This document shows, piece after piece, positions 3,793 through 18,838 of a stretch of DNA of 49,022 nt. Origin of the DNA: Actinomycetota bacterium (GTDB lineage: Bacteria; Actinomycetota; Actinomycetes; Streptosporangiales; Streptosporangiaceae); assembly GCA_021324595.1 (NCBI GenBank), contig JAJPIV010000032.1, positions 1 to 49,022 on the forward strand, given 5' to 3'. The notes under the pieces are model-generated. The model did not search any database, was not told the DNA's origin, and worked only from the letters and a program-made list of their open reading frames with translations. Position 1 is the stretch's first letter. Every line of letters starts with the position of its first letter. Made by a program: the position numbers and the translations under genes.

Positions 3793-5223
3793 TCAAGCGG
3801 CGGCAGGCATCCAGGGCCGGCCTTCGGTGAGCATGACGAGGGCGTCGAAGAAGTGCAGGCCGTGTTTGGCGGCGGTGGATGGGTAACTTCGGATCGCGCA
3901 GAACTGCCGGGCACCGGTGAGGGTGCGCAGGCAGCCGGATACCTTCTGCCTGAGCTTGGCCATCCGGATGTCGCGCTCGGTTCCGTTGTTGCCTGGGGGG
4001 ACCTCCCAGTTGCTGGTGAATCGCAGGTAGTCGTCCTGGCGGTCGAGCAGGCGGCGGGCCAGGGCGTGATGTTTGCGTGCGAGCGTGCCGGGGCGGCCGC
4101 TGGTCTGGCTGGCACCGATCAGCGCGGCGGATCGGTAGAGGGTGACCTGCCCGGCAAGGGCGGCCGGATCAACGGCATCGCGCCCCTGGGTGATCGCCTC
4201 GCTGACCAGCTTCTGCATCGTGGTGAGCGCCTCGGCGGCCTGGGTGGCCCAGCGCCATTGGCCGTCGGGGGCGGTGCCGGTGACGGCCTGCGGCTCGCGC
4301 AGGACGTGCGCGCAGCACAGCTGGTGGGCTGCCCCGGTGTAAAGGTCATACGGCGCCCAGGCATCGTGCACGGCGACCCCGCTGAAGGAGGGCAGCGCAC
4401 CCATCGCCTCCATGGCCGCCTTCCCGCGCCGGGGGCGGACCACGAGCAGGGTGTACTTGCCGGGGCGGGCGCACTGCACCCAGGCCAGCTTCCCCTCCGC
4501 CCGGAACCCGGTCTCATCAAACCCCGCCACCGGGCTGGCGGCGATCTGCTTCCCCGGTCCAGGAACCCGTCGAGGCTCCCGGCGGACCGGGCGGTGACGG
4601 CCGCGACCGTGCCGGAGGAAACCGGGACGCCGAACAGCTCGGCCAGCGCCTGCGCGGTCCGCTGCTCGGACAGGAACTGCCCGGCATACAGGTAGATGAT
4701 GATCGCGGCGATCTGCGGCCCGTATTGCACCGGCGCCTGCGCCCTGGCCGGGGCCGCTGCCTTGGTGCGGTGCCCGCAGGCACATTCGCGCTCAATCAGC
4801 TGATGCTCGGTCACCTCGATCGCCGACGGCGGCAGATCGAAGACCTGGCGGCGCTCCACCCCGGTGACCGGGCGGCCCGCCCGCCCGCTCCCGCACCAGC
4901 CGCAGCGGGCCGGCTCATGGCGTACCTCCCGGTCCGGCCGGGCCGCCTGCATCAGGGTCTGCCCGTCGTGCCCATCCTGCCCGCCCGGCTTACGCCCGGT
5001 CTTCTTCCGCAGCGACCGCGGCGCCGGCTGCCCAGCCCCTCGCTGGAAGCAGGCTTCGGCGAGTTCCGCGAGTCCTGCTTCAGCTGCGCCTCAAGCTCAG
5101 CGATCCGCAACCGCGCCCGCTCAAGCTCCGCCCGCGTCTGCGTCAGCTCCTGACGAAGCGAGACCACCAGTGCGGCCAGCACCTCATATGGCGTCGGGCC
5201 TTCCTCAACGGGCACACCGGGAC
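3781..5223. mobile_element. IS66-type insertion sequence with a single transposase gene (ends approximate)
   Basis: The element is defined by the IS66-family transposase on the minus strand; no accessory tnpA or tnpB genes are present, as in the reduced IS66 subgroup. Exact ends are not proven. A weak imperfect inverted match exists between GGCCTGGTGTG at 3781-3791 and the reverse complement of 5213-5223 (GTCCCGGTGTG), but the right copy overlaps the transposase start. I could not identify a target duplication. On the left it abuts the BrnT-like gene and on the right a broken methyltransferase. Confidence 0.6.
3793..5215 (-). pseudogene. IS66-family transposase, interrupted by two frameshifts
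   Basis: Read through two frame changes, the protein is a typical IS66 transposase. An N-terminal coiled coil (LRQELTQTRAELERARLRI) leads to NSPKPASSEGLG, then RKKTGRKPGGQDGHDGQT. A zinc-binding part follows with CGWCGSG and ECACGHR. The catalytic core contains VAGFDETGFR, VHDAWAPYD and, near the end, NNGTERDIRMAKLRQKVSG. The frame changes lie at about 5030-5043 and 4551-4562. Each is cured by adding one base, and the second lies at a GGGG run. It is either an inactive copy or an intact gene with two single-base assembly losses. The start is GTG at 5215. Confidence 0.85.
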
Positions 5224-5918: not shown

Positions 5919-7220
5919 TTACGGGCCGGCCTCGCCGTCGGCGAGCGCGAGGCCGTGATCGAGCGCGGCGAAGATCTGCTCGAGCTCGGCCTCGCTGACC
6001 ACCAGCGGCGGCGCCAGGAACAGCGATGTCTGCTCGCCGCTGGTGGCGATCAGCACGTCGGCCTCCAGCGCCCGGGCGACGACGCGGCTGGCGAGCGGGC
6101 TGGGGTCTTCCCCGCGCCAGTCGCGCCAGTCCGGGCCGTGCAGCTCGACCGTCCAGTGCAGGCCCCGGCCATCCACCCGGGCCACGCTCGGATGCCGCGC
6201 GGCGATCTGGCCGAGCCGGTCGAGCATGAGGCCGTCGAGCTCCCGCGCCCTCTGGTAGAGGCCGTCTCGGCGGGAGACGCGCAGGTGAGCCCGGATCGCG
6301 GCCATCGCGACCGGGTGCGCCCGGTAGGTGGAGTAGCTCTGCCAGCTGGTCCCGCGCAGGCGCTCCGCCACTTCGGCCGACAGGACGACGGCGCCGGCCG
6401 CGGCGCCGCCCGCGCTCATGCACTTGCCCATGGTGACCAGGTCCGGCCGGGAGCGGCCGTGCTGGAACTGGAACCATCCGCCGACCCGGCCGAACCCGGT
6501 CACGGTCTCGTCGGCGATCCAGAGCGCCCCCGCCTGCCGTGCCAGGTCGGCCACCCGGTCCTGGTAGGCGGGGGAGTGGTAGACGCCACCCTGGCTGTAG
6601 TCGAGCAGGACAGCCGCGCTGGCGGCCAGCATCTCCCGCGCGCGGCCGGTCCATCCCTCGCCGCGCGTCGGGTCGGGCTGCCCGGTCACCCGCGCCCCGC
6701 AGGGCGCGGGCAGCTGGTGGACCGTGGCGAGCCGCGGCGGCGCGCTGACCCCCCCGGCGGCGCGGGACAGCCCGCCGTGCCACTGGGGCTGGACGGTCAG
6801 CTCCCGGGCCAGGCCGGCGCCGCCATGATAGGCCCGCTCGCGCGTGGCGAGCGGCGCCCGCCCGGTGAGCGCCTGGCACAGGGCCAGGGCCGCGTCGTTG
6901 GCCTCGCTGGCGCTGATGAAGAAGCGGACGGCCCCGGCCCAGTCCTCGCCGTCGAAGGCGATGCCGATCAGGTCATCGGCGGCCTGCTCGCGCTCGGCCC
7001 AGTGCCAGCCCTCGTTGATGACCGGGGCCGCCGCGGCCCGCGCGACCGCCTCGACGATCTCCGGGTGACAGTGGCCCAGCGGGGCGGCGGTGTTGCTGGC
7101 GTCGATGACCTCCCGGCCGTTCTCCAGCGTGAACCAGGCCCCGTGGCCACCGACGATCCGGGGGCTCGACTCGTCCCCGGCGGTCAGGCTGGTGGACAGC
7201 AGCCGCCCGGAGCCGCTCAC
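5919..7220 (-). CDS. Class III (omega) PLP-dependent aminotransferase
   Basis: This 433-residue protein has the fold-type I class III signature. LGHCHPEIVEAV is near residue 48, the PLP-phosphate-binding segment ISASEAND near 102, ADETVTGFGR gives the pyridine-nitrogen aspartate D237, and the Schiff-base lysine is K266 in VTMGKCMSAGG. Family members move amino groups from omega-amines, beta-alanine, GABA or aminoisobutyrate to pyruvate or 2-oxoglutarate. It is the last gene of a four-gene minus operon, 31 bases after the tautomerase. The start is GTG at 7220 with GGGAG eight bases upstream. In context it would deaminate a beta- or gamma-amino acid produced by the nitrilase-fold hydrolase. That is an inference. 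Confidence 0.85.
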   Translation of the reverse strand: MSGSGRLLSTSLTAGDESSPRIVGGHGAWFTLENGREVIDASNTAAPLGHCHPEIVEAVARAAAAPVINEGWHWAEREQAADDLIGIAFDGEDWAGAVRFFISASEANDAALALCQALTGRAPLATRERAYHGGAGLARELTVQPQWHGGLSRAAGGVSAPPRLATVHQLPAPCGARVTGQPDPTRGEGWTGRAREMLAASAAVLLDYSQGGVYHSPAYQDRVADLARQAGALWIADETVTGFGRVGGWFQFQHGRSRPDLVTMGKCMSAGGAAAGAVVLSAEVAERLRGTSWQSYSTYRAHPVAMAAIRAHLRVSRRDGLYQRARELDGLMLDRLGQIAARHPSVARVDGRGLHWTVELHGPDWRDWRGEDPSPLASRVVARALEADVLIATSGEQTSLFLAPPLVVSEAELEQIFAALDHGLALADGEAGP

Positions 7221-7467: not shown

Positions 7468-8343
7468 TCACCTCGCCACGCCCGCCGGCTTCCCGGCGCC
7501 GAATCCGTGGACGGGCAGGCCGGGCCTCCGCGACATCCACAAGACGCTGTTCCGCTCCTCCGCGCGCGACACCCCGGCGCGCAGCGGCACGGGAACGCAC
7601 AGCAGCTCGGGCGGCGGCCGCTCCCCCTCGCCCGCGCGGCCCGCGCGGGCCGCCACCTCGCCGAACGGCGTCAGCACCTGGCTGGCGCCCAGCAGGGTGC
7701 CGGACGGGTTGGCCCCGCATTGGTTCGCCATCACCCACCACTGGCCGTTGGCGAGGGCGAGCGCGGGGTAGAGCGTCTCCCACCAGGCGGCAGCCTCGGC
7801 CTCGTACGCGGCGGGCTCGATGACCAGCGTCGCGCCCGCGAGCCGCAGGGCCCGCGCCGTCTCCGGGAAGTCGCCGTCGAAGCAGACCGCCAGGCCCACG
7901 GTCCCGAGCTCGCCGGTCCGGCAGACGGTGAGCCGGCCGCCGGGCGTGAATATCTTGTCCTCACCGGTCGGGCCGTACAGGTGGGCCTTGCGGTGCCAGG
8001 CGCGCAGGCGGCCCTTCCGGTCGTACAGCACGCCCGTGTTGTGGACGGCGCCGTCGGCGCCCCGCTCGGGGACCGACCCGGCGGCGAGCCAGATGCCCAG
8101 CTCCCGGGCGCGGCGGCTGAGCGCCTCCCCCCGGGGCCCGGAGAGCGGCTCGGCCGCCCCTCGGGCGTGCCCGGCCAGGGCCGCCGGGTCGTACCCGCAG
8201 GGCCACAGCTCGGGGAGCACGACGAGGTCCGCGCCCTGCCGCGCCAGCTCGCCGGCCAGGCCGAGCGCGGCCGACAGGTTCTCCGCCGGCCTGCCGGGCT
8301 CGGGCAGCCACTGGGCGATGCCGATGACGGCATCCTCACGCAC
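7468..8343 (-). CDS. Carbon-nitrogen hydrolase (nitrilase superfamily amidase/ureidase)
   Basis: The 291-residue protein carries the nitrilase-superfamily catalytic set: E45 in VVLPELW, K119 in WHRKAHLYG and C154 in LAVCFDGDFPE. The superfamily includes aliphatic amidases, N-carbamoyl amino acid hydrolases and beta-ureidopropionase. The Glu-Lys-Cys set does not decide among them, and the short length favours an amidase or carbamoylase over a true nitrilase. The GTG start at 8343 overlaps the permease end by eight bases, with GGGGAG at the right distance. In this operon it would cleave an amide or ureide formed after ring opening and feed the aminotransferase. Confidence 0.85.
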   Translation of the reverse strand: MREDAVIGIAQWLPEPGRPAENLSAALGLAGELARQGADLVVLPELWPCGYDPAALAGHARGAAEPLSGPRGEALSRRARELGIWLAAGSVPERGADGAVHNTGVLYDRKGRLRAWHRKAHLYGPTGEDKIFTPGGRLTVCRTGELGTVGLAVCFDGDFPETARALRLAGATLVIEPAAYEAEAAAWWETLYPALALANGQWWVMANQCGANPSGTLLGASQVLTPFGEVAARAGRAGEGERPPPELLCVPVPLRAGVSRAEERNSVLWMSRRPGLPVHGFGAGKPAGVAR

Positions 8344-9754
8344 TGACGCTCCCCGCCCGCACCGGGACCTTGGCCTCCCTGGCGACCCTGGCCCGAGCCA
8401 CCATGTAGTAGAGCGGGAGGATGACGGCGAGGCCGACCAGCCAGGACAGGTCAGTGCCGCCGAGGCTCCTGGCGACCGGCCCCTCGAACAGGGTGGTGTT
8501 GACGAACGGGATCTGGATGCCCACGCCGATCAGGTAGACGATCAAAGTGGCCCAGTTCACCCGCCCGTACACCCCGCCGGAGGGCTCGAAGAACGACGGC
8601 ACGTGGTACTGGCCGTGCCGGATCAGGTAGAAGTCCACCAGGTTGATCGCCGTCCACGGGATGAGCACGTAGAGCAGGAACAGGATGAAGTTCACGTAGC
8701 TGGTCAGGAAGGTGCTCTGGTAGGCGAGTGCCCCGACGAGCGCGACCGCGACGATGAGCACCGACACCACGGCGCGAGTGCGGGCGCGGGGCAGCCAGCG
8801 GTGGCGGAACGTCTGGCCCACGGTGATGGAGCACAGCATCCCGCCGTAGAGGTTGATCGCGTTCGTGTCGATGATCCCGAGCGCGAACACCAGCATGATC
8901 AGCCATCCCGCGCCCGAGGTCAGGTGGTCGATCGCGGAGATCTGGTCCGGGTTGGCGGACGCGAGCCCGACGACCACCCCGAGGATCATGGGCAGGACGG
9001 TGCCCAGGACCACGCCCGCATAGGAGAACCAGAACGTGGCCCGGACGCTCTCCCCGGCCGGCATGTACCGGGAGTAGTCGGAGACATAGGGGGCGTACGC
9101 GATCTGCCACAGGATCCCGGTCGTGGCGGCCGCCCCGATGAACCCGCTCCAGGTGAACGAGCCCTCGGAGAGGAAGGTGGCCGGCAGCCCCCGGGCGACG
9201 ATCACGCCGAGGGCGAGCAGCATCACGCCGCCGAACAGGATCGTCGCCCACCTGTTCACCGCGTGGATCAGGTCGTAGCCGACCACGGTGATGAGCAGGC
9301 TGCCCACGCCGCAGATGACGATGCCCCAGTCGGTGCTGACGCCGTGGACGAGCTGGTTGATCGACTGCCCGCCGAGGATCAGGTTCGAGGCGAAGAAGCC
9401 GACGTACATGAACACGGCGATCGCGATGACCAGCACCGCGCCGACCATGCCGTACTGGCCGCGGCTCTGGATCATCTGCGGCACGCCCAGCCGCGGCCCC
9501 TGCGCGGAGTGCAGCGCCATGAACAGCGCGCCGAGCAGGTTGCCCAGCAGGATCGCCAGGACGCTGGCCCCGAACGGCAGCTTGAAGGCCACCGGCGCGA
9601 GCGCCCCGGTGACGAAGGTCAGGGGCATGATGTTCGAGCTGAACCAGATGGTGAACAGGTCTCGCGGCCTGCCGTGCCTTTCGCTTTCCGGGATGGCGGC
9701 GATCGTGTACTGCTCCAGGGTCGCCGCCGTGGCGGATGTCCGGCTTTCGGTCAT
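8336..9754 (-). CDS. NCS1-family nucleobase:cation symporter-like permease
   Basis: A polytopic membrane protein of 472 residues with about 12 predicted hydrophobic segments and the look of the NCS1 family (cytosine, purine, uracil, allantoin, hydantoin carriers): WFSSNIMPLTFVTGAL near the start, then SRYMPAGESVRATFW and WTAINLVDFYLIRHGQY. These carriers import neutral nitrogen heterocycles with Na+ or H+. I place the start at ATG 9754 (MTESRTS) rather than 9766, because GGAG lies seven bases before it and the longer form lacks a site. It leads the four-gene minus operon, under a recognisable promoter at 9784-9813. Its presence is the best hint that the cluster substrate is a heterocycle. Confidence 0.85.
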   Translation of the reverse strand: MTESRTSATAATLEQYTIAAIPESERHGRPRDLFTIWFSSNIMPLTFVTGALAPVAFKLPFGASVLAILLGNLLGALFMALHSAQGPRLGVPQMIQSRGQYGMVGAVLVIAIAVFMYVGFFASNLILGGQSINQLVHGVSTDWGIVICGVGSLLITVVGYDLIHAVNRWATILFGGVMLLALGVIVARGLPATFLSEGSFTWSGFIGAAATTGILWQIAYAPYVSDYSRYMPAGESVRATFWFSYAGVVLGTVLPMILGVVVGLASANPDQISAIDHLTSGAGWLIMLVFALGIIDTNAINLYGGMLCSITVGQTFRHRWLPRARTRAVVSVLIVAVALVGALAYQSTFLTSYVNFILFLLYVLIPWTAINLVDFYLIRHGQYHVPSFFEPSGGVYGRVNWATLIVYLIGVGIQIPFVNTTLFEGPVARSLGGTDLSWLVGLAVILPLYYMVARARVAREAKVPVRAGSVSA

Positions 9755-9783
9755 GGTGAGCTCCATGGGTGCGGCGTTGCGGC

Positions 9784-9813
9784 AGTGTAGGATCGCGCCT
9801 TCGCACGGTGCAA
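9784..9813 (-). promoter_or_regulatory. Sigma-70-like promoter of the permease operon
   Basis: On the minus strand TTGCAC (9813-9808) and TACACT (9789-9784) are separated by 18 bases. Transcription would start near 9777, leaving a leader of about 24 bases before the ATG at 9754. The match to housekeeping consensus is good for such a GC-rich genome. Confidence 0.5.
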
Positions 9814-9818
9814 GATGC

Positions 9819-9833
9819 TTTCATCAAGTGAAA
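9819..9833. promoter_or_regulatory. 15-bp inverted repeat, candidate IclR-family operator
   Basis: TTTCATCAAGTGAAA has perfect five-base arms around a five-base centre. It lies six bases upstream of the permease -35 box, between two divergent genes of the cluster. IclR-family regulators commonly bind short, AT-rich palindromes of this size, and the cluster encodes one. The link is inferred. Confidence 0.4.
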
Positions 9834-9972
9834 TTCAGCACGTGGCGGGCTCGTCATGCGACAGGGCTCTCTCGGGAAGCGAGAGGCTGTTCCCCCCGGC
9901 CGGGGCGAGTGGTACCGTCCGCCTGCCCCGGCGCGGGCCGGGGCGGACCCTGGGCGAAGGGGGGCCAGGCTG

Positions 9973-12051
9973 GTGCGCGACCCCAGGTACGACATCCTGT
10001 TCGAGCCGGTCCGGATCGGCCCGGTCACGGCCAGGAACCGGTTCTTCCAGGTGCCGCACTGCAACGGCATGGGCTACCGCGACCCGAGCGCCCAGGCCGC
10101 CATGCGCGGCGTCAAGGCGGAGGGCGGCTGGGCGGTGGTGTGCACCGAGCAGGTGGAGATCCACCCGACCTCCGACATCACCCCGTTCATCGAGCTGCGG
10201 ATCTGGGACGACGCGGACCTGCCGGCGCTGGCCCGGATCTGCGATGCGATCCATTCCCAGGGCGCGCTCGCCGGCATCGAGCTCGCGCACAACGGCATGA
10301 ACAGCCCCAATCTCTACAGCCGTGAGGTCCCGCTCGGCCCGGCCAGCCTGCCGGTGGCGACCTGGAGCCACGACCCGGTGCAGGCCCGCGCGATGACCAG
10401 GGCCGACATCGCGGACCTGCGCCGCTGGCACGCCGACGCGGTCCGCCGGTCGCTGGCGGCCGGGTACGACCTGGTCTACGTGTACGCGGCGCACGGCCTG
10501 GGCGGGCTGCACCACTTCCTGTCCCGCCGTTACAACGACCGCGGCGACGAGTACGGGGGGAGCCTCAGGAACCGGGCCCGGCTGCTGAGCGAGATCCTGG
10601 CCGACACCCGCGAGATCGCGGATGGCCGCGCCGCCGTCGCCTGCCGGATCACCGTGGACGAGATGCTCGGCGAGGCGGGGATCACGCGGGCGGAGACTGA
10701 GGAGCTCGTCGGCCTGCTCGCCGAGGTTCCCGACCTGTGGGACTTCGTCCTGGGGAGCTGGGAGGACGACTCGGTCACCTCCCGGTTCGCTCCCGAGGCG
10801 GCCCAGGAGGAGCATGTGCGCGGGCTCAAGCGGCTCACCACCAAGCCGGTCGTCGGCGTGGGCCGGTTCACCTCCCCGGACACGATGGTCCGCCAGGTCA
10901 CCAGCGGGGTGCTGGACCTGATCGGAGCGGCCCGGCCGTCCATCGCTGATCCCTTCCTGCCCCGCAAGATCGAGGAGGGCCGCCTCGAGGACATCCGGGA
11001 GTGCATCGGCTGCAACGTCTGCGTTTCGGGTGACTTCACCGCGTCGCCGATCCGCTGCACCCAGAACCCGGCCATGGGCGAGGAGTTCCGGCGGGGCTGG
11101 CACCCGGAGCGGATCAGGCCGAGGCGCTCGGACGCGCGGATCCTGGTCGCGGGTGCGGGGCCCGCCGGGCTGGAGGCGGCGCGGGCGCTTGGCCAGCGTG
11201 GCTACCGGGTGACGCTGGCCGAGGCGTCCCGGGAGCTGGGCGGCCGGGTCGCCCGCGAGTCGGCCCTGCCGGGCCTGGCGGCCTGGCGCCGGGTGGCGGA
11301 GTACCGCGAGCAGCAGCTCCGGCGGATGCCGAACGTGGAGATCTACCCGCAGAGCCCGATCGACGCGGACGATGCGCTGGCGGGCGGCTTCACCCACGTG
11401 GTGGTCGCCACCGGCGCGGCCTGGCGGGCCGACGGCGTCGGCCGCTGGCACACCCGCCCGATCCCCGTCGGCGGGCCGCTGCCCGTGCTCACCCCAGACG
11501 ACCTGATGGCCGGGCGCCGCCCGGCCGGGCCGCGCGTGGTGGTGTTCGACGACGACCACTACTACCTCGGCGGGGTGCTCGCGGAGCTGCTGGCGGGTGA
11601 GGGCTGCCAGGTGCGGCTGGTCACCCCGGCAGCGCACGTCTCGGCGTGGACGGCGAACACCCTGGAGCTCGTGCGCATCCGGCGGCGGATCATGCGCGCG
11701 GGGATCGCCGTGGACACCAACCGCACGGTGACCAGGCTGGACGGGGACGGCGTGGTGACCGCGTGCGTGTTCACCGGCGCTGAGGCCCTGGTGGAGGCGG
11801 ACGCCGTCGTGATGGTGACGGCCCGCCTGCCGCGCGACCGGCTGGCGGCCGATGTGGAGGCCATCGCCTCGCGGCGGCCCGGGGGCCCGCTTCGCTCGGT
11901 GCAGGTGATCGGGGACGCGTGGGCGCCGGGGACGATCGCGGCGGCCGTCTGGTCGGGCCGGCGCTGCGCCGAGGAGCTCGACGAGCCGCCCAGCACGGCG
12001 CCCGTGCCGTTCCGGCGCGAGGTCGCCGCGCTCTCCCGCGAATGGCCGTGA
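9973..12051 (+). CDS. Dimethylamine/trimethylamine dehydrogenase-like flavo-iron-sulfur enzyme
   Basis: The 692-residue protein follows trimethylamine dehydrogenase (TMADH) end to end: an FMN-binding TIM barrel, a 4Fe-4S site and C-terminal nucleotide-binding domains. The GTG start at 9973, behind AAGGGGGG, gives VRDPRYDILFEP, which lines up with the mature TMADH N-terminus. C30 in QVPHC matches the cysteine that holds 6-S-cysteinyl FMN. Cysteines C344/C347/C350/C362 (CIGCNVCVSGDFTASPIRC) match the cluster ligands. Y171 and H174 (YAAH) and the Asp in WEDD match the catalytic triad. Position 60 is Gln (TEQ), where TMADH has Tyr and dimethylamine dehydrogenase has Gln. The loop carrying TMADH Trp355 lacks a Trp. 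I infer oxidative N-dealkylation or deamination of a secondary amine, with electrons passing to ETF. No ETF gene is in the window. Confidence 0.85.
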   Translation: MRDPRYDILFEPVRIGPVTARNRFFQVPHCNGMGYRDPSAQAAMRGVKAEGGWAVVCTEQVEIHPTSDITPFIELRIWDDADLPALARICDAIHSQGALAGIELAHNGMNSPNLYSREVPLGPASLPVATWSHDPVQARAMTRADIADLRRWHADAVRRSLAAGYDLVYVYAAHGLGGLHHFLSRRYNDRGDEYGGSLRNRARLLSEILADTREIADGRAAVACRITVDEMLGEAGITRAETEELVGLLAEVPDLWDFVLGSWEDDSVTSRFAPEAAQEEHVRGLKRLTTKPVVGVGRFTSPDTMVRQVTSGVLDLIGAARPSIADPFLPRKIEEGRLEDIRECIGCNVCVSGDFTASPIRCTQNPAMGEEFRRGWHPERIRPRRSDARILVAGAGPAGLEAARALGQRGYRVTLAEASRELGGRVARESALPGLAAWRRVAEYREQQLRRMPNVEIYPQSPIDADDALAGGFTHVVVATGAAWRADGVGRWHTRPIPVGGPLPVLTPDDLMAGRRPAGPRVVVFDDDHYYLGGVLAELLAGEGCQVRLVTPAAHVSAWTANTLELVRIRRRIMRAGIAVDTNRTVTRLDGDGVVTACVFTGAEALVEADAVVMVTARLPRDRLAADVEAIASRRPGGPLRSVQVIGDAWAPGTIAAAVWSGRRCAEELDEPPSTAPVPFRREVAALSREWP

Positions 12052-12086: not shown

Positions 12087-12884
12087 CTAGACGTCCCAGC
12101 CGGCGTCGACCGGGATGTCGTGCCCGGTGATGTTCCGCGCGGCAGGGGAGACCAGGAAGCGGACCGCCTCGCCGACGTCAGTCTCCTCCACGAAGCGGCC
12201 GAGCGCGGTCTGGGCGGCGAAGTCCGCGTAGACCTCCTCGGGGGCCTTGCCCAGCTTGCGCGCCTTCTCGGCGACGATGCGGTCCATGCGCGCGCCGTTG
12301 GTCACGTTCGGGCAGACGGTGTTGACCGTGATGTCGTGCGGCCCGAGCTCGAGCGCGAGCGTCCGGGTCAGGCCGCGCACCGCCCACTTGGACGAGGAGT
12401 AGCCGCTGCGGTTGCGGTAGCCGCGCAGCCCGGAGGTGCCCGCCAGGTTGACGATCCGGCCGCCTCCGCGCGCGATCATGTGCGGGATCGCGTGCTTGCA
12501 CGGCAGGAACGTGCCGATGACGTTCAGCTCGAGGATCTTGCGGAACTCCTCGGCCGGGTAGCTGTGCGCCGGGGTCTCGATCGGCCCGGTGCCCCCGGCT
12601 GTGTTCACCAGGATGTCGACGCCGCCGAAGCGGGCCGCCACCGCGGCCATCATCGCCGCCACCTGCTCCTCGTCGGTCACGTCGCAGCGAACCGGCAGGC
12701 TCTGGCGGCCGGGGTACTTCTCGTCCAGCGCCGTCGCCTTCGCCGCGAGCGCCGCCTCGTCGCGCCCGGCCAGCGCGACGTGCGCCCCGTCCTGAGCGAG
12801 AAAGTCGGCCGCGATGGCGCCGATCCCCTTCGCGGCGCCGGTCACCACCGCCACCTTGTCCGCCAGCGGCAGGTCCCTGGTCAT
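12087..12884 (-). CDS. Short-chain dehydrogenase/reductase
   Basis: A classical SDR of 265 residues. The cofactor glycine motif TGAAKGIG is at 15-22, CDVTDE follows near 67, and the catalytic pair is Y162 and K166 in YSSSK, with GHDIPVDAGWDV at the end. Such enzymes use NAD(P)(H) on hydroxyl or keto groups. The start codon overlaps the IclR stop (ATGA, 12881-12884), so both proteins come from one message and are translationally coupled. It likely handles an alcohol or ketone intermediate of the cluster pathway. Substrate not predictable. Confidence 0.85.
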   Translation of the reverse strand: MTRDLPLADKVAVVTGAAKGIGAIAADFLAQDGAHVALAGRDEAALAAKATALDEKYPGRQSLPVRCDVTDEEQVAAMMAAVAARFGGVDILVNTAGGTGPIETPAHSYPAEEFRKILELNVIGTFLPCKHAIPHMIARGGGRIVNLAGTSGLRGYRNRSGYSSSKWAVRGLTRTLALELGPHDITVNTVCPNVTNGARMDRIVAEKARKLGKAPEEVYADFAAQTALGRFVEETDVGEAVRFLVSPAARNITGHDIPVDAGWDV

Positions 12885-13759
12885 GCGCGGCTCCTCTCCC
12901 AGCGCCCCCCCGGCCCCCGGGCGGGGCCATCGCCGGCCGGGCCGATCGGCACGTCGGCCGCCGACACCTGGGGGGTGGCCCGCCCGATGGCACGGCCGAT
13001 CTCGGCCGCCGCCTCGTGCACGAGCGCCACGTCCCGGCGGACCCGGTCGACGGACAGGCGGGGGCTGGGCCCGGCGATGCCGACGGCGCACACCACGTCG
13101 GAGTCGGAGACCACCGGCACCGCGATGCCCCACACGCCGACGTTGGTCTCCTCGTAGCTGCTCGCCCAGCCGCGCGCGCGGATGGCCTTCAGCTCGCGCC
13201 GCAGCTCGCGCGGATCGGTGATGGTGGACGCGCAGAACCGGTCGAGCGGCCGCTCGATCAGCCGCTCGATCTCCTCCTCCGGCATGAACGCCAGGAGCGC
13301 CTTCTGGGAGGCGCCGGCGTGCAGCGGGAGCTGCCGGCCTGGCTGCACCGACAGGCGCAGCGGCTGCGGCGTCTCCACCCGCTCCAGGCACACGCTCCGG
13401 TCGCGCTCCGGCGTCAGCACGGTGAGCAGGGCCGTTTCCCCGGTCGCGTCCGACAGGCGGCGGAGGGGGCCCAGCGCGACCGGGCGCAGGTCGGCCACGG
13501 CGCGCGCCCGCTCGCCCAGGCTCAGCGCGGCGGCGCCGAGGCGGAACCGGCGGGTGTCCTCGTGCTGGCTGACATAGCCGAGCCGCTTGAGGGCGGCGAG
13601 GATGCGGTGCACGGTGGGCACGGGCAGCCGGAGCGCGCGGGCGATGTCGGTCGTGCTCCACTCCGGCCGTGCCTCGGTGAACACCTCCAGGATGCGGAAG
13701 GTCCGCTCCAGCACCTGGAAGGCGGGCTTGGGCTCGTCGCCAGCCGCGGGGACAGGCAC
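12881..13759 (-). CDS. IclR-family transcriptional regulator
   Basis: A 292-residue regulator with an N-terminal winged helix (FQVLERTFRILEVF, then STTDIARALRLPVPTVHRILAAL) and a C-terminal GAF-like effector domain (LHAGASQKALLAF, CAVGIAGP). IclR proteins sense catabolic intermediates and act as repressors or activators of adjacent operons. The start chosen is GTG at 13759, because a perfect AGGAGG (minus strand, 13773-13768) stands eight bases before it; the longer ATG form at 13804 would overlap a palindrome. It is divergent from the hydrolase-molybdenum hydroxylase operon and cotranscribed with the SDR, so it is the natural controller of the whole cluster. Confidence 0.85.
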   Translation of the reverse strand: MPVPAAGDEPKPAFQVLERTFRILEVFTEARPEWSTTDIARALRLPVPTVHRILAALKRLGYVSQHEDTRRFRLGAAALSLGERARAVADLRPVALGPLRRLSDATGETALLTVLTPERDRSVCLERVETPQPLRLSVQPGRQLPLHAGASQKALLAFMPEEEIERLIERPLDRFCASTITDPRELRRELKAIRARGWASSYEETNVGVWGIAVPVVSDSDVVCAVGIAGPSPRLSVDRVRRDVALVHEAAAEIGRAIGRATPQVSAADVPIGPAGDGPARGPGGRWERSRA

Positions 13760-13793
13760 TTGCGCAACCTCCTGGCATCGGTCATCCGGGTGA

Positions 13794-13805
13794 CATGCTA
13801 GCATG
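13794..13805. promoter_or_regulatory. 12-bp perfect palindrome in the iclR-like/hydrolase divergent promoter
   Basis: CATGCTAGCATG is a perfect palindrome midway between the divergent IclR-family and hydrolase starts. About 28 bases further on is TTTCATGTCACGAGAAA, which shares the TTTCAT half-site with the 9819 repeat but has wider spacing. Either could be the operator. Confidence 0.35.
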
Positions 13806-13873: not shown

Positions 13874-14851
13874 GTGGACCGACCTGATCTCGAACTTCTG
13901 CGCGGCGCCATCGACATGCACGCGCACACCGCCCCGGCCCTGTTCAAGCGGCACATAGACGACGCCGCCCTCGCCGAGTACGCCGCCGCCTACGGGATGC
14001 GCGGCTTCGTGCTGAAGGACCATGACGCGTCCACCACCGGCCGGGCCTATTACGTCAACCGCATGTACCCGCACGTCGAGTCCTACGGCTCCGTGGTCCT
14101 GAACCGCTCGGTGGGCGGCCTCAACCCCTACGTCGCCGAGGCCGCCATCCAGTACGGCGCCAGGGTCGTCTGGATGCCGTCGAATCACTCCAAGTACCAC
14201 GCGGAGTTCTTCGACATGCCGGACTACCCGCAGTTCGGCCGCCCGAGGAAGCAGCTTCCCGGCGAGGGCGTGACGGTCTTCGAGGAGGACGGCCGCACCC
14301 TCACCAGGGAGGCGAGGACGATCTGCGAGATCGTCGCCGAGAACGACGTGGCGCTGGCCACCGGGCACCTGTCGCTCGCGGAGATCCGGGCGCTGCAGGA
14401 CGCCGCGGTGGACGCCGGCGTGAGCCGCTTCATCGTCACGCACGCGAACTGGTCGCTGTGCAAGCTGGACCTCGACGTCCAGCGCGAGCTCATCGCCAAG
14501 GGCGCGACCATGGAGTACGTCGCCTGCTCGTGCGTCTCTCCCATCTTCTGGGAGCAGCAGCCCGGCGAGCTCGCCGAGTGGATCATCGCCCTGCGCGGGG
14601 AGAATGTCGTGCTCGGCTCCGATCTCGGCCAGTTCGCCGGGCCTCCCCACCCGGAGGGCCTGCGGATGCTGCTCGCGGCGCTGCTCGACGTGGGGGTGCC
14701 GTACGAGTACCTGGAGAAGATGGCCAAGGAGAACCCGGTCGCCGTGCTCGGCCTCGACCCTGGCTGGAGCCCGGCGCCCGCCGCGGCGCCGGCGCCCGCT
14801 GCGGCGCCGGCCCCCGCCGCGGCACCGCTCCCGGCGCCTTCCTCCCGGTGA
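13874..14851 (+). CDS. Amidohydrolase-like protein (DUF6282-type) with a Pro-Ala repeat tail
   Basis: The 325-residue protein resembles metal-dependent hydrolases of the amidohydrolase/PHP type: DMHAHTAP gives the HxH pair at about 15-17, and later ligand-like sites are LKDHDAS, ATGHLS, VTHANW and GSDLGQFAG. I believe it belongs to the uncharacterised DUF6282 group, a recall not verified. In context it may open a lactam or cyclic ureide ring made by the adjacent hydroxylase. GTG at 13874 follows GGAGGAG at good distance. The last 28 or so residues are a low-complexity Ala/Pro tail built from an 18-bp DNA repeat, which the catalytic fold should not need. It is the first gene of the plus operon. 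Confidence 0.65.
   Translation: MDRPDLELLRGAIDMHAHTAPALFKRHIDDAALAEYAAAYGMRGFVLKDHDASTTGRAYYVNRMYPHVESYGSVVLNRSVGGLNPYVAEAAIQYGARVVWMPSNHSKYHAEFFDMPDYPQFGRPRKQLPGEGVTVFEEDGRTLTREARTICEIVAENDVALATGHLSLAEIRALQDAAVDAGVSRFIVTHANWSLCKLDLDVQRELIAKGATMEYVACSCVSPIFWEQQPGELAEWIIALRGENVVLGSDLGQFAGPPHPEGLRMLLAALLDVGVPYEYLEKMAKENPVAVLGLDPGWSPAPAAAPAPAAAPAPAAAPLPAPSSR
14771..14838 (+). repeat. Tandem 18-bp repeat coding the Ala-Pro tail
   Basis: About three to four copies of a unit close to GCGCCCGCCGCGGCGCCG, in frame, encode PAPAAA repeats at the C-terminus of the hydrolase. The copies differ slightly, so this is not an assembly echo of a single unit. Confidence 0.7.
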
Positions 14852-14935
14852 CGCTCCCCGGCGAGGAGATCTCGTGAGCCGAAAGGCATTTGCCTGTCCC
14901 GAGAAGCCGTGCTAGGCATCTGCACCGGAGGCACC

Positions 14936-15901
14936 ATGTTCATCAGGCCATTCGGGTACGAGCGGGCCGGGAGCCTCGCGGACGCGTGCGAGATGCTGCG
15001 TGAACGGGGGGAGGCCGCCAAGGTCATCGCGGGCGGCCAGAGCCTGCTGCCCATGGTCAACCTCGGCCTGGTCCAGCCCGAAGTGATCATCGACATCTCT
15101 CACGCCGGCCGGGACGACGACGGCGCCGCCGCCCGCGGCGGCGGCGCGGTGCCCGGCGGCGCGGTGCCCGGCGGCGGCCGCTCCGGGAGCGATCGGGCCG
15201 TTGCCGCGCGGAGCCGCGAGATCGGCGGCGGGGACGGCTACCTCACCATCGGCGCCCTCGTGAGCCACGCCCGGCTGGCCGGCGACCCGGCCGTGGCCTC
15301 GGCGCAGCCGCTGCTGGCCGCCGCGGCGGCCCGGATCGGCAACCCGCGCGTCCGCAGCCGGGGGACGCTCGGCGGCTCGCTGGCGCACAGCGACCCGGCC
15401 GCGGAGCTCCCGCTCGCCATGGTGGCCCTGGGCGCGAGCTATCGCGTCACCGACGGCCGGTCGGCCCGCGATGTCAGGGCGGAGGAGTTCCACCTGTCGT
15501 TCCTCACCAGCGCGCTGGCCGAGGACGAGCTGGTCGTCTCCGCCACCGTGCCGGCGCTCGGCCCCGGCTGGGGCTGGAGCTTCCAGGAGGTCGCACGCCG
15601 GGAGGGGGACTTCGCGCTCGCCGCCGTCGCGGTGCTGGTCCGCATGGCCGGCGGCATCGTGGCCGAGGCGAGGGTCGCGGTCGGCGGCGCCGCCGACCGG
15701 CCGCTGCGCCTCGCCGACGTGGAGGCCGCCCTGGCCGGGGCGTCCCCCGGCGAGATCGCCGGGCGCGCCGGGCCGCTGCGCGGGCTCTCCCCCGTCTCCG
15801 ACATCAGCGCCAGCGCAGGGCACCGCGCGCACCTGTGCGCCGTCCTGGTCCGCCGCGCCCTGGACGAGGCATGCCGACGCTCACAGGAGGCCACCGCGTG
15901 A
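14936..15901 (+). CDS. Molybdenum hydroxylase FAD-binding subunit (xanthine dehydrogenase/CoxM family)
   Basis: The 321-residue protein is the medium subunit that carries FAD and passes electrons out of the complex. The flavin motifs are IAGGQSLLPM near residue 34 and RSRGTLGGSLAHSDPAAELP near 140. The ATG at 14936 (MFIRPFGYERAG) is chosen because GGAGG lies just before it. Between the two flavin motifs there is a glycine-rich insertion of about 40 residues (DDDGAAARGGGAVPGG onward), partly built from a 15-bp repeat and absent from typical family members as I know them. The gene is second in the operon, 84 bases after the hydrolase, and overlaps the iron-sulfur subunit by GTGA. Confidence 0.85.
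   Translation: MFIRPFGYERAGSLADACEMLRERGEAAKVIAGGQSLLPMVNLGLVQPEVIIDISHAGRDDDGAAARGGGAVPGGAVPGGGRSGSDRAVAARSREIGGGDGYLTIGALVSHARLAGDPAVASAQPLLAAAAARIGNPRVRSRGTLGGSLAHSDPAAELPLAMVALGASYRVTDGRSARDVRAEEFHLSFLTSALAEDELVVSATVPALGPGWGWSFQEVARREGDFALAAVAVLVRMAGGIVAEARVAVGGAADRPLRLADVEAALAGASPGEIAGRAGPLRGLSPVSDISASAGHRAHLCAVLVRRALDEACRRSQEATA
15141..15180 (+). repeat. Short in-frame 15-bp repeat within the FAD subunit gene
   Basis: Two adjoining copies of GCGGTGCCCGGCGGC plus related flanks encode AVPGGAVPGGG. It forms the core of the glycine-rich insertion and looks like a replication-slippage expansion. Confidence 0.6.
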
Positions 15902-16467
15902 CGCACACCGCGACCATCACCTTGACCGTGAACGGCCAGCGCCTGACCCGGACCGCCGGGGCGCACCTGACCCTGCTGCGCTGGCTGCGCGACCTCGCCG
16001 GGGTCACCGACCCCAAGTACGGCTGCGGCGAGGGCGTGTGCGGGGCGTGCGCCGTGCTCCTCGACGGCGAGCCCGTGTCGGCATGCCTGGTGCTGGCGGC
16101 CCAGGTGGACGGGGCCGAGGTCACCACGGCCGCCGGCCTGTCCGGGCCGGGCGGGATCCCCGGCCCGTTGCAGGAGGCGTTCCACGCCTGTCACGCAGCC
16201 CAGTGCGGGTTCTGCACGCCCGGCATGCTCGTGACCGCGGCGGCGCTGCTGGCTGACGGCCGCATCCGGTCCCGGGCCGAGATCCGGGCCGGGCTGCACG
16301 GCAACCTGTGCCGCTGCACCGGATACGGCCCGATCGTGGACGCGGTCGAGGCCGCGCAGGAGGCCCGGCAGGCCCGGCCGGATCCGCGTGATCACCTGGG
16401 GCGCGCGCCGGCCGGCCACGACGCGCCCCGGCCGCGCCCGGCGGCCGGGCCGGAGCGCGGGCGATGA
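15898..16467 (+). CDS. Molybdenum hydroxylase 2Fe-2S subunit (CoxS family)
   Basis: A 189-residue small subunit with both iron-sulfur sites of the family: C43, C48, C51 and C63 form the plant-ferredoxin-like cluster ([11 protein letters not shown]), and C103, C106, C138, C140 form the second ([17 protein letters not shown]). It shuttles electrons from the molybdenum centre to FAD. GTG at 15898 overlaps the preceding stop and has AGGAGG seven bases upstream, so the start is secure. Some 25 residues after the last cluster are Pro/Arg/Ala-rich and extend beyond the usual family end. The stop overlaps the large-subunit start. Confidence 0.92.
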
Positions 16468-18838
16468 CCAGCGCGGCGCCTGGGGCACCGGGCAGGCCAG
16501 GCGGCATCCGGACCTCCAAGCTGGACGAGCTCAGGGTGGTCCACCAGGCCCTGCCCCGGCACGACCAGGCCGAGAAGATCGCGGGAACCACGCGCTACGC
16601 CGGTGACCTGGCGTTCGCGCACATGTTGCACGCCCGCCTGGTTCGCTCGCCCGTCCCCTCCGCGCGCGTGACCCGCCGCGACTCCACCGCGGCGGCGGCG
16701 GTTCCCGGGGTGGTGTGCGTCCTGTTCGGCGAGGACGTGCCGCACAACACGATCTGGGTGGACGTGCCCGGCCAGACGGTGGAGGTCGCCGCGCTCAAGG
16801 CCAGCATGGAGGTGCTCGCGACCGACCGGGTGCGGTTCCACGGCGAGCCGGTCGCGCTGGTCGTCGCCGAGTCGGAGGAGGCGCTCACGGCGGCGTGCGA
16901 GCTGGTCGAGGTCGAGTACGAGGAGCTCCCGGGCGTCTTCGACCCGGACGAGGCGCTGGCCGACGGCGCGCCCGCCGTCCACGAGCGGGGCAACTTGATC
17001 GGGGAGTGGCGGATCGACCGGGGCGACGCCGACGCTGCGTTCGCCGCGGCCGACGTGATCGTGGAGGGCAGCTACCGGACCCAGTTCGTGGACCACGCCT
17101 ACCTGGAGCCGGAGGCCGGCGTGGGCTGGATGGACGACGAGGGGGTGCTCAACCTGCGGGTCGCCACCCAGGTCGTGGAGCACTACCGGGACGTGGCCCG
17201 CATCCTCGGCGTCCCGGAGTCACGGGTCCGGGTGATCGCCCCCTACGTGGGCGGCGGCTTCGGCGGCAAGGAGGACATGACCGTCGAGCCCTACCTGGCC
17301 CTCGCGGTGCTGCGGACCGGCCGTCCGGTGCGGATGCAGTGGACCCGGCAGGAATCCCTGCTCGCCCGGCCGAAGCGGCACCCGATGCGGCTGCGCTACC
17401 GCACGGCGGCCCGCCGTGACGGGACGATCCTGGCCCACAGCATCGACATCACCGCCGACTCCGGCGCGTACGCCTACCTGTCCGCGCTCGTGCTGCTTTA
17501 CTCCTCGGTGCACGCGTGCGGCCCCTACCGGGTGGACAACGTCCGCCTGCGCGCCCGCTGCGCCTACACCAACAACCCGCCCACGTCGGCGTTCCGGGGG
17601 TTCGGCGGGATGCAGGTGGTGTTCGGCTACGAGGCGCAGATGGACCAGGTGGCGGCCAGGCTCGGGCTGTCCCCGGCCGAGATCAGGAAGAAGAACGCGC
17701 TGGCGCGGGGCGACACCCTGCCGGTCGGCCAGGTCATCGAGACCGAGGTCCTGCTGAAGGACTGCATCGACGCGGTGCTGGACAGGGCGGGGGCCAAGCC
17801 CGCGCCGTCCGGCCCGCGCAAGGCCGTGGGCCGGGGCATGGCCGCCAACATCCAGTCGTACGGCAGGCTGGTCTGGCTGAACGACTCGGCCGCCGCGTGG
17901 GTCGGGCTGCAGCTCGACGGCAGCCTGACCGTGCGGTGCGGAGTGCCCGACATCGGCGGAGGCCAGGCATCCTCGCTCGCCCAGATCGCCTCCGAGGTCC
18001 TCGGGGTGCCGATGGACCGGGTCACCGTTCACTTCGGCGACTCCGCCCTCACCCCGCTGGCGGGCACGACGACCGCCACCCGCCAGCTGCTCATGTCCGG
18101 CAACGCGGTGTACGAGGCGAGCGTCCAGCTGCGGGACGCTGTGCTGGGCGCCGTGGCGCGGGAGACGGGCCAGCCGGCCGGCGGGCTCGCGATGCGGGCC
18201 GACGGCGCCGGCGGCACGGTGATCGCGGGGCCCGGCCTGCGCCTGACGCTCCCGGAGGCGGTGCTGATCTGCCGGCGCCGGAACGTGCCGGCGGAAGCGC
18301 TCGGCACGTTCTTCGGCCCGAAGGGGCAGCCGGTCGCGCGGGACCTGCGGGCGGACCGGGTGTTCCCGGACTTCACCTTCGGCGCGCACCTGTGCGACCT
18401 GGAGGTGGACATCGACACCGGGCACGTGCAGGTGGTCCGCTACATCGCCGCGCACGACGTGGGCAGGGCCATCAACCCCTGTCGGTCGCCGGGCAGATCA
18501 GCGGCGCCGCGGTGCAGGGGCTCGGGATGGCGCTCCTGGAGGAGGTCGTGGTCGAGGACGGGGTCAACCTGGCCGCGGGGTTCTTCCAGTACCTGATCCC
18601 GACCGCGACCGACGTGCCGGACATCGAGGCGATCGTGCTGGAGTCCGGGGAAGGGCTCGGGCCGTTCGGGGCGCGCGGCACCGGCGAGCCGCCGATCGGC
18701 CCGCCCGCCGCCGCGGTGGCCAGCGCGATCTGCGACGCGCTCGGCCGGCGGCCCACCGCGCTTCCGATCACCCCGGAGCGGGTGCTGGCGTGCGCGGCGC
18801 CCGCCGATGGCGGCCCGGACCGCCCGGGCGCGCCCTGA
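16464..18838 (+). CDS. Molybdenum hydroxylase large subunit (xanthine dehydrogenase family), with one frameshift
   Basis: The catalytic subunit binds the molybdopterin-cytosine dinucleotide cofactor. It has GGGFGGKED near residue 262, TSAFRGFGGMQV near 374 and the catalytic-glutamate region RGTGEPPIGPP near the end. The first frame is open from ATG 16464 but leaves the family at about 18475-18482 (INPCRS). Adding one C to the AACCCCTG run restores INPLSVAGQISGAAVQGLG and an open frame to TGA 18838, about 790 residues, which is full length. The AYxCSFR loop of CO dehydrogenase is absent, so this is an N-heterocycle or aldehyde hydroxylase, not CO oxidation. I treat the shift as a probable sequence error. 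Confidence 0.85.

Follow-up and report, generated by a model that had tools for sequence, protein, structure and literature searches.

Histamine dehydrogenases (HDHs) are the closest described enzymes to the one considered here. According to the portion of the source available (PMC10180351), HDHs oxidise histamine and, more slowly, agmatine, putrescine and 1,3-diaminopropane. In the enzyme from Nocardioides (Pimelobacter) simplex (3K30), residues Gln65, Ile74, Phe77, Glu79, Asn115, Tyr181, Trp267 and Asp358 have been proposed to bind histamine, and in that from Rhizobium sp. 4-9 (6DE6), sensitivity to substitution is high at Trp263 and Asp354 and intermediate at Gln60 and Ile69 (PMC10180351, same portion). 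Pno of Agrobacterium S33, another HDH-family member, is described in the accessible text on that enzyme as using electron transfer flavoprotein as its acceptor (PMC7688666). A route of histamine breakdown, the hin pathway, is known from Pseudomonas putida, where the parts of two reports available list a permease, an aldehyde dehydrogenase, a FAD monooxygenase, amidases, an aspartase and a LysR regulator (PMC8231116, PMC6467879). Its first step is carried out by the aminotransferase HinC, whereas HDH loci have a flavin dehydrogenase. In the literature searched, with most subscription journals outside its coverage and several sources available in part, no description of an HDH in a hin-like cluster was found.

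We then examined a stretch of 49,022 nucleotides, hereafter the window, in which an HDH gene is surrounded by the following features:

5919..7220, minus strand: class III aminotransferase, at the end of the divergent unit (PF00202, 172 bits)
7468..8343, minus strand: carbon-nitrogen hydrolase, co-directional with the permease gene and overlapping it (PF00795, 135 bits)
8336..9766, minus strand: NCS1-type permease, divergent from the HDH gene (PF02133, 172 bits)
9767..9972, no strand: intergenic stretch between the HDH and permease genes
9973..12051, plus strand: histamine dehydrogenase (FMN/[4Fe-4S] amine dehydrogenase), 692 aa, GTG start
12087..12884, minus strand: short-chain dehydrogenase/reductase, SDR (PF13561, 199 bits; start from the open reading frame listing)
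12881..13804, minus strand: IclR-family regulator (profile matches)
13874..14851, plus strand: DUF6282 protein (PF19799, 212 bits)
14909..15901, plus strand: molybdenum hydroxylase FAD subunit (PF00941, PF03450)
15835..16467, plus strand: molybdenum hydroxylase 2Fe-2S subunit, start uncertain (PF01799, PF00111)
16464..18838, plus strand: molybdenum hydroxylase large subunit, frame broken, end taken from an open reading frame in another frame

The open frame at 9973-12051 on the plus strand, first reported in an earlier note on this DNA, was found again, and an alternative ATG start lies at position 9856 in the same frame as the GTG. A search of PDB sequences placed 3K30 first (1039 bits), 6DE6 second (867 bits) and HisD (6L6J) third (690 bits), with trimethylamine dehydrogenase (TMADH; 1DJN, 532 bits) well below both HDHs. 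Since the protein aligns over its full length to solved enzymes, with up to 1039 bits, chance similarity is excluded. It fell below every NCBIfam cut-off among the matches listed (best 25 of 34). Altogether, the protein belongs to the HDH family, an assignment that we regard as practically certain.

The earlier note had proposed structure prediction and superposition on TMADH as a check. The nearest fold to the model, which was built from 30 aligned sequences (mean pLDDT 81.8, below 50 in the lid portion, residues 109-136, including Asn110), is 3K30 (Z 49.8, 2.5 A over 660 residues, 63% identity), followed closely by TMADH (2TMD, 48.1) and then by 6DE6 and 6L6J (both 47.5). Fold alone cannot separate HDH from TMADH, because the Z score of TMADH just exceeds that of the Rhizobium HDH; the two are separated by sequence and residue evidence.

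In a MAFFT alignment with TMADH, the residue assignments made earlier held throughout. The FMN cysteine is Cys30 in both enzymes; Tyr171 and His174 correspond to TMADH Y169 and H172; Trp263 and Asp266 of the WEDD motif, in which Asp265 adjoins Asp266, correspond to W264 and D267; and the four Fe-S cysteines (344, 347, 350 and 362) to C345, C348, C351 and C364. The cysteine set for a 6-S-cysteinyl FMN and a [4Fe-4S] cluster is therefore complete, and FMN is predicted to be covalently linked to Cys30. TMADH resembles the window enzyme in fold and in all these positions, at 38% identity in the structural alignment, but differs in its trimethylamine cage. Gln60 is aligned to Y60, and the loop reads CVSG-DF where TMADH has CISRWEI, W355 standing opposite the gap. 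Hence, of Tyr60, Trp264 and Trp355, the window enzyme keeps Trp264 alone (as Trp263), so that the cage is incomplete, as had been noticed before. Trimethylamine was rejected as substrate, given Gln60 and, in the 355 loop, the gap and Asp354, which upholds the earlier view that it is an unlikely one.

The eight published histamine-site residues were all found where expected in 3K30 with chain numbering. Their counterparts in the window are Gln60, Ile69, Phe72, Glu74, Asn110, Leu176, Trp263 and Asp354; seven of the eight are identical, the sole difference being Leu176 for Tyr181. Besides these residues, 3K30 shares with the window enzyme the FMN cysteine, the Fe-S cysteines, the catalytic residues and the fold, while the window protein is one residue longer after about position 230. 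The Rhizobium HDH has the same pattern of Q, I, F, E, N, W and D, but carries Phe at the 181 site and WEDC in place of WEDD. Judged by these residues, Gln60 and the absent Trp355 equivalent are the HDH's own signature, and the "broken trimethylamine cage" would be the histamine site; trimethylamine is unlikely for this same reason.

To place the enzyme among its relatives, these were collected by exact peptide patterns of the query in genome contigs, and the best 80 of 564 loci (L008-L087) were kept, a sample that for this reason leans to close relatives and in which some contigs end early. Glu79, Trp267 and Asp358 (3K30 numbering) are invariant in all 80. At site 65, which is residue 60 of the window enzyme, 55 have Gln and 25 have Glu, and the full QIFEN pattern occurs in 51 of the 55 Gln60 enzymes; the Glu60 enzymes are unlike 3K30 at site 74 in 24 of 25, at site 77 in 21 of 25 and at site 115 in all 25. 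Site 181 is held by Leu (46), Ile (22), Phe (6), Met (3) or Tyr (3). As Leu is the commonest residue there (46/80), Leu176 is ordinary and was rejected as a mark of new specificity. Among the 25 loci with at least three of six histamine-type companion groups, this site is Ile, Leu or Phe in every case, and Leu in five. As a side observation, Lys replaces the catalytic His (His174 in the window) in four related HDH-like proteins (L079, L081, L082 and L085), two of them from Xanthobacter. The genome of the window also encodes a second family member (L109, G000:C167:3957-6035), 45-46% identical to the window HDH, in which Ala stands for Cys30, position 60 is Tyr and one Fe-S cysteine is replaced by Ser.

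A tree of 88 rows was obtained by a quick search, with support by SH-aLRT only and some long branches. It places both characterised HDHs and the window enzyme within one group of 84 rows (SH-aLRT 98). The window protein, L009, L008 and a partial gene of genome G033 form a group (97), which joins 23 proteins, chiefly from Rhodococcus, Mycobacterium and Gordonia, with a support of 94 that falls slightly short of the starred level. Most of those 23 sit with such genes as aldehyde dehydrogenase, FAD monooxygenase, DUF1028, RidA, M20 amidohydrolase, aspartase, APC permease and LysR. Across the 80 loci, the tree requires six or more switches between Gln and Glu at position 60.

A simple script called the genes that flank HDH in the 80 loci, and these genes were then grouped, the companion groups being defined on the same loci and labelled from one representative each by Pfam or NCBIfam; several of them are broad families. 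Companions were counted by tblastn (at least 60% of the representative in one piece, 1e-30), a rule that misses split or partial genes (e.g., L022, L065). Among the 55 Gln60 loci, matches were obtained for RidA in 40, LysR in 38, DUF1028 in 34, aldehyde dehydrogenase in 31, FAD monooxygenase in 28, APC permease in 25, M20 amidohydrolase in 21 (a second M20 type in 12), aspartase in 16, NCS1 permease in 14, HpaB-type monooxygenase and the Amidohydro_3 type in 13 each, and HutI-like imidazolonepropionase in six. Among the 25 Glu60 loci all these counts are zero, except for one aldehyde dehydrogenase. The neighbours of the HDH relatives thus match hin genes in role, a likeness drawn by description only. 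HutI-like genes, whose representative (L043) exceeds the curated hutI cut-off, lie near HDH in L043, L044, L047, L048, L051 and L065 and would fit an imidazolone step. The HpaB-type gene lies near HDH in L010-L012, L015, L033, L043, L045, L046, L059, L061, L079, L085 and L087; as 11 of these 13 loci have no FAD monooxygenase match, a HpaB-type flavin monooxygenase may possibly replace the latter in the ring-hydroxylating step.

At least two of eight histamine-type companion groups were present in 39/55 Gln60 loci and in 0/25 Glu60 loci, and the same rule gave 34/41 and 0/12 when applied to loci of at least 19 kb only. The Fisher value of 3e-10 overstates the evidence, because a kinship-corrected test was not significant (median p 0.25, six independent pairs; on average 2.9 pairs in the same direction, 0 opposite and 3.1 with no difference). 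The present sample suggests that Gln or Glu at position 60 tracks the presence or absence of histamine-type neighbours, and kinship could explain it; the 25 Glu60 enzymes may act on other amines.

The window HDH has Gln60, yet none of the usual histamine-breakdown companions is found in the window: none of the 13 companion-gene representatives matches anywhere in the 49 kb at 1e-5, the later hin-type genes are missing, and the combination that defines a hin-type cluster (monooxygenase, DUF1028, amidase and aldehyde dehydrogenase near an amine-oxidising gene) was not found there. In the genome, which was searched for DUF1028, FAD monooxygenase, ureohydrolase and HutI-like genes, there was no match for DUF1028, the best FAD monooxygenase match reached 29% over under half of the representative, and two ureohydrolases and one 37% HutI-like match were detected. 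As an enzyme, the window HDH is an ordinary family member, and it is its neighbourhood that is unusual.

This neighbourhood is nevertheless shared with a few relatives. L009 has all the genes in the same order, with identities of 63 to 93%, the DUF6282 protein being 93% identical over 298 residues; the permease, hydrolase, aminotransferase and HDH are found again in G033 (L108), where the contig ends within HDH. NCS1 relatives of 43-52% identity lie near HDH in 14 other loci, and the permease is kept beside HDH in L009 and L108. Of 394 sampled genomes of the class, nine have an NCS1 match at 1e-100 and nine an HDH at 1e-180 or better; in the three with both (G000, G085 and G416) the pair lies within about 8 kb, and G085 has a full histamine-type cluster that includes the NCS1 permease. 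The window's permease is the likely importer of the HDH substrate. The aminotransferase is also kept in L009 and L108, and was not detected at E 1e-70 in any of 393 other sampled genomes of the class.

The hydrolase is under the cut-off of all eight NCBIfam models matched, and its Glu45, Lys119 and Cys154 resemble the catalytic triad of carbon-nitrogen hydrolases; the aminotransferase reached no NCBIfam cut-off among the matches listed (best 25 of 69). For the permease and the DUF6282 protein no solved relative was found at the thresholds used, the latter being presumably hydrolase-like from its DMHAHT motif. Among solved enzymes, the molybdenum large subunit comes closest to nicotinate dehydrogenase (3HRD, 295 bits). 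The frame of the large subunit breaks at about 18461-18497, the C-terminal part continuing in another frame, which means either an assembly error or a dead gene. In G416, the molybdenum large subunit is on another contig than HDH and adds no linkage. An IS66-type transposase (3793-4785, minus strand) lies near the end of the aminotransferase gene. A promoter scan of 9767..9972 returned no sigma-70-like site, and no inverted repeat common to the HDH-permease intergenic regions of the window, L009 and L108 was seen by eye.

Taking residues and relatives together, the substrate is best read as a primary amine, with histamine as the first candidate, and not as a secondary or cyclic one; histamine is probably the main physiological substrate. 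The amine, imported probably by the divergent NCS1 permease, would be gripped by Trp263, Gln60, Asp354, Glu74, Ile69, Phe72 and Asn110 and oxidised at the Cys30-linked FMN, with Tyr171, His174 and Asp266 as catalytic residues; water would then free imidazole acetaldehyde and ammonia, and the electrons may travel by way of the [4Fe-4S] cluster to an acceptor, for instance electron transfer flavoprotein. As the usual later genes are missing in the window, there are three options: genes in other parts of the genome may deal with the aldehyde; a different route may be built from the molybdenum hydroxylase, the DUF6282 protein, the hydrolase and the aminotransferase; or the enzyme may naturally act on another primary amine, e.g., agmatine.

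The last of these options, an HDH-family enzyme with agmatine or another diamine as its physiological substrate, whose guanidine or GABA-type product would be processed by the adjoining hydrolase and aminotransferase, is unlikely in our judgement. The accessible part of PMC10180351 does report HDH side activity on agmatine and 1,3-diaminopropane, and the window hydrolase matches N-carbamoylputrescine amidase, if weakly (61 bits, cut-off 410). Moreover, SDR and molybdenum genes like those of the window lie near HDH in L009, L040 and L077, and the latter two also carry an agmatinase-like gene (2/55 Gln60 loci). However, this ureohydrolase match was also found beside one Glu60 enzyme (L078, 1/25), and ureohydrolases act also on formimino compounds of imidazole routes. 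The window itself has no match to the agmatinase-like protein at 1e-5, neither the hydrolase nor the aminotransferase reaches a specific model among the matches listed, and, site 181 excepted, the histamine-site residues are those of the characterised HDHs.

That the window represents a third type of locus for histamine (imidazole-amine) breakdown, in which a molybdenum hydroxylase rather than a flavin monooxygenase oxidises the imidazole ring, is quite improbable, although part of the survey speaks for it. The HDH would start such a route, the water-using molybdenum hydroxylase would then oxidise the ring, the DUF6282 protein and the carbon-nitrogen hydrolase would open it and release a carbamoyl group, and the aminotransferase would dispose of the amino group, all steps past the aldehyde being conjectural. 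In support, an FMO-type or HpaB-type monooxygenase is present in 39/55 Gln60 loci, and L009, L040 and L077, which have a close molybdenum subunit and the SDR, carry neither. On the other hand, L045 and L047 have a distant molybdenum subunit (30-36%) plus a monooxygenase, and the broken frame of the window's large subunit counts against this route.

The earlier note had concluded that the substrate was probably a secondary or cyclic amine, as for a dimethylamine-dehydrogenase-like enzyme, and while its description of a broken trimethylamine cage stands, this conclusion is not supported, and we consider it very improbable. The loss of Trp355 together with Gln60 does break the cage, but the same two changes are seen in both characterised HDHs, with the other HDH-site residues kept in the window; the replacements match Gln65 and Asp358 of the HDH histamine site, and HDHs oxidise primary amines. 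At six of the eight sites TMADH has another residue than 3K30, in a comparison that covered HDHs, TMADH and HisD. The phylogeny that the earlier note had proposed likewise speaks against it, grouping the window enzyme with the two characterised HDHs.

Finally, a 6-hydroxypseudooxynicotine amine oxidase (HisD/Pno-like) acting with the molybdenum hydroxylase in an N-heterocycle pathway has next to no probability and was rejected: despite the nicotinate-dehydrogenase-like molybdenum enzyme nearby, the third place of HisD among the sequence matches, and a shared fold, Fe-S cysteines and Tyr/His/Asp, HisD has Ala opposite Cys30, non-covalent FMN and other substrate-site residues (one of eight shared with 3K30, and two, Leu and Trp, with the window enzyme), and the window protein reaches 690 bits with HisD against 867-1039 bits with the HDHs.

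Overall, the substrate guess for this enzyme is corrected from a secondary or cyclic amine to a histamine-type primary amine, and the survey suggests a testable rule that relates Gln or Glu at position 60 to the neighbouring genes. If true, a molybdenum-type histamine route would be a chemically different way to open the imidazole ring. Moreover, since HDHs serve in food histamine tests, as stated in the part of PMC10180351 at hand, variants for that use can be drawn from the window enzyme and its relatives.
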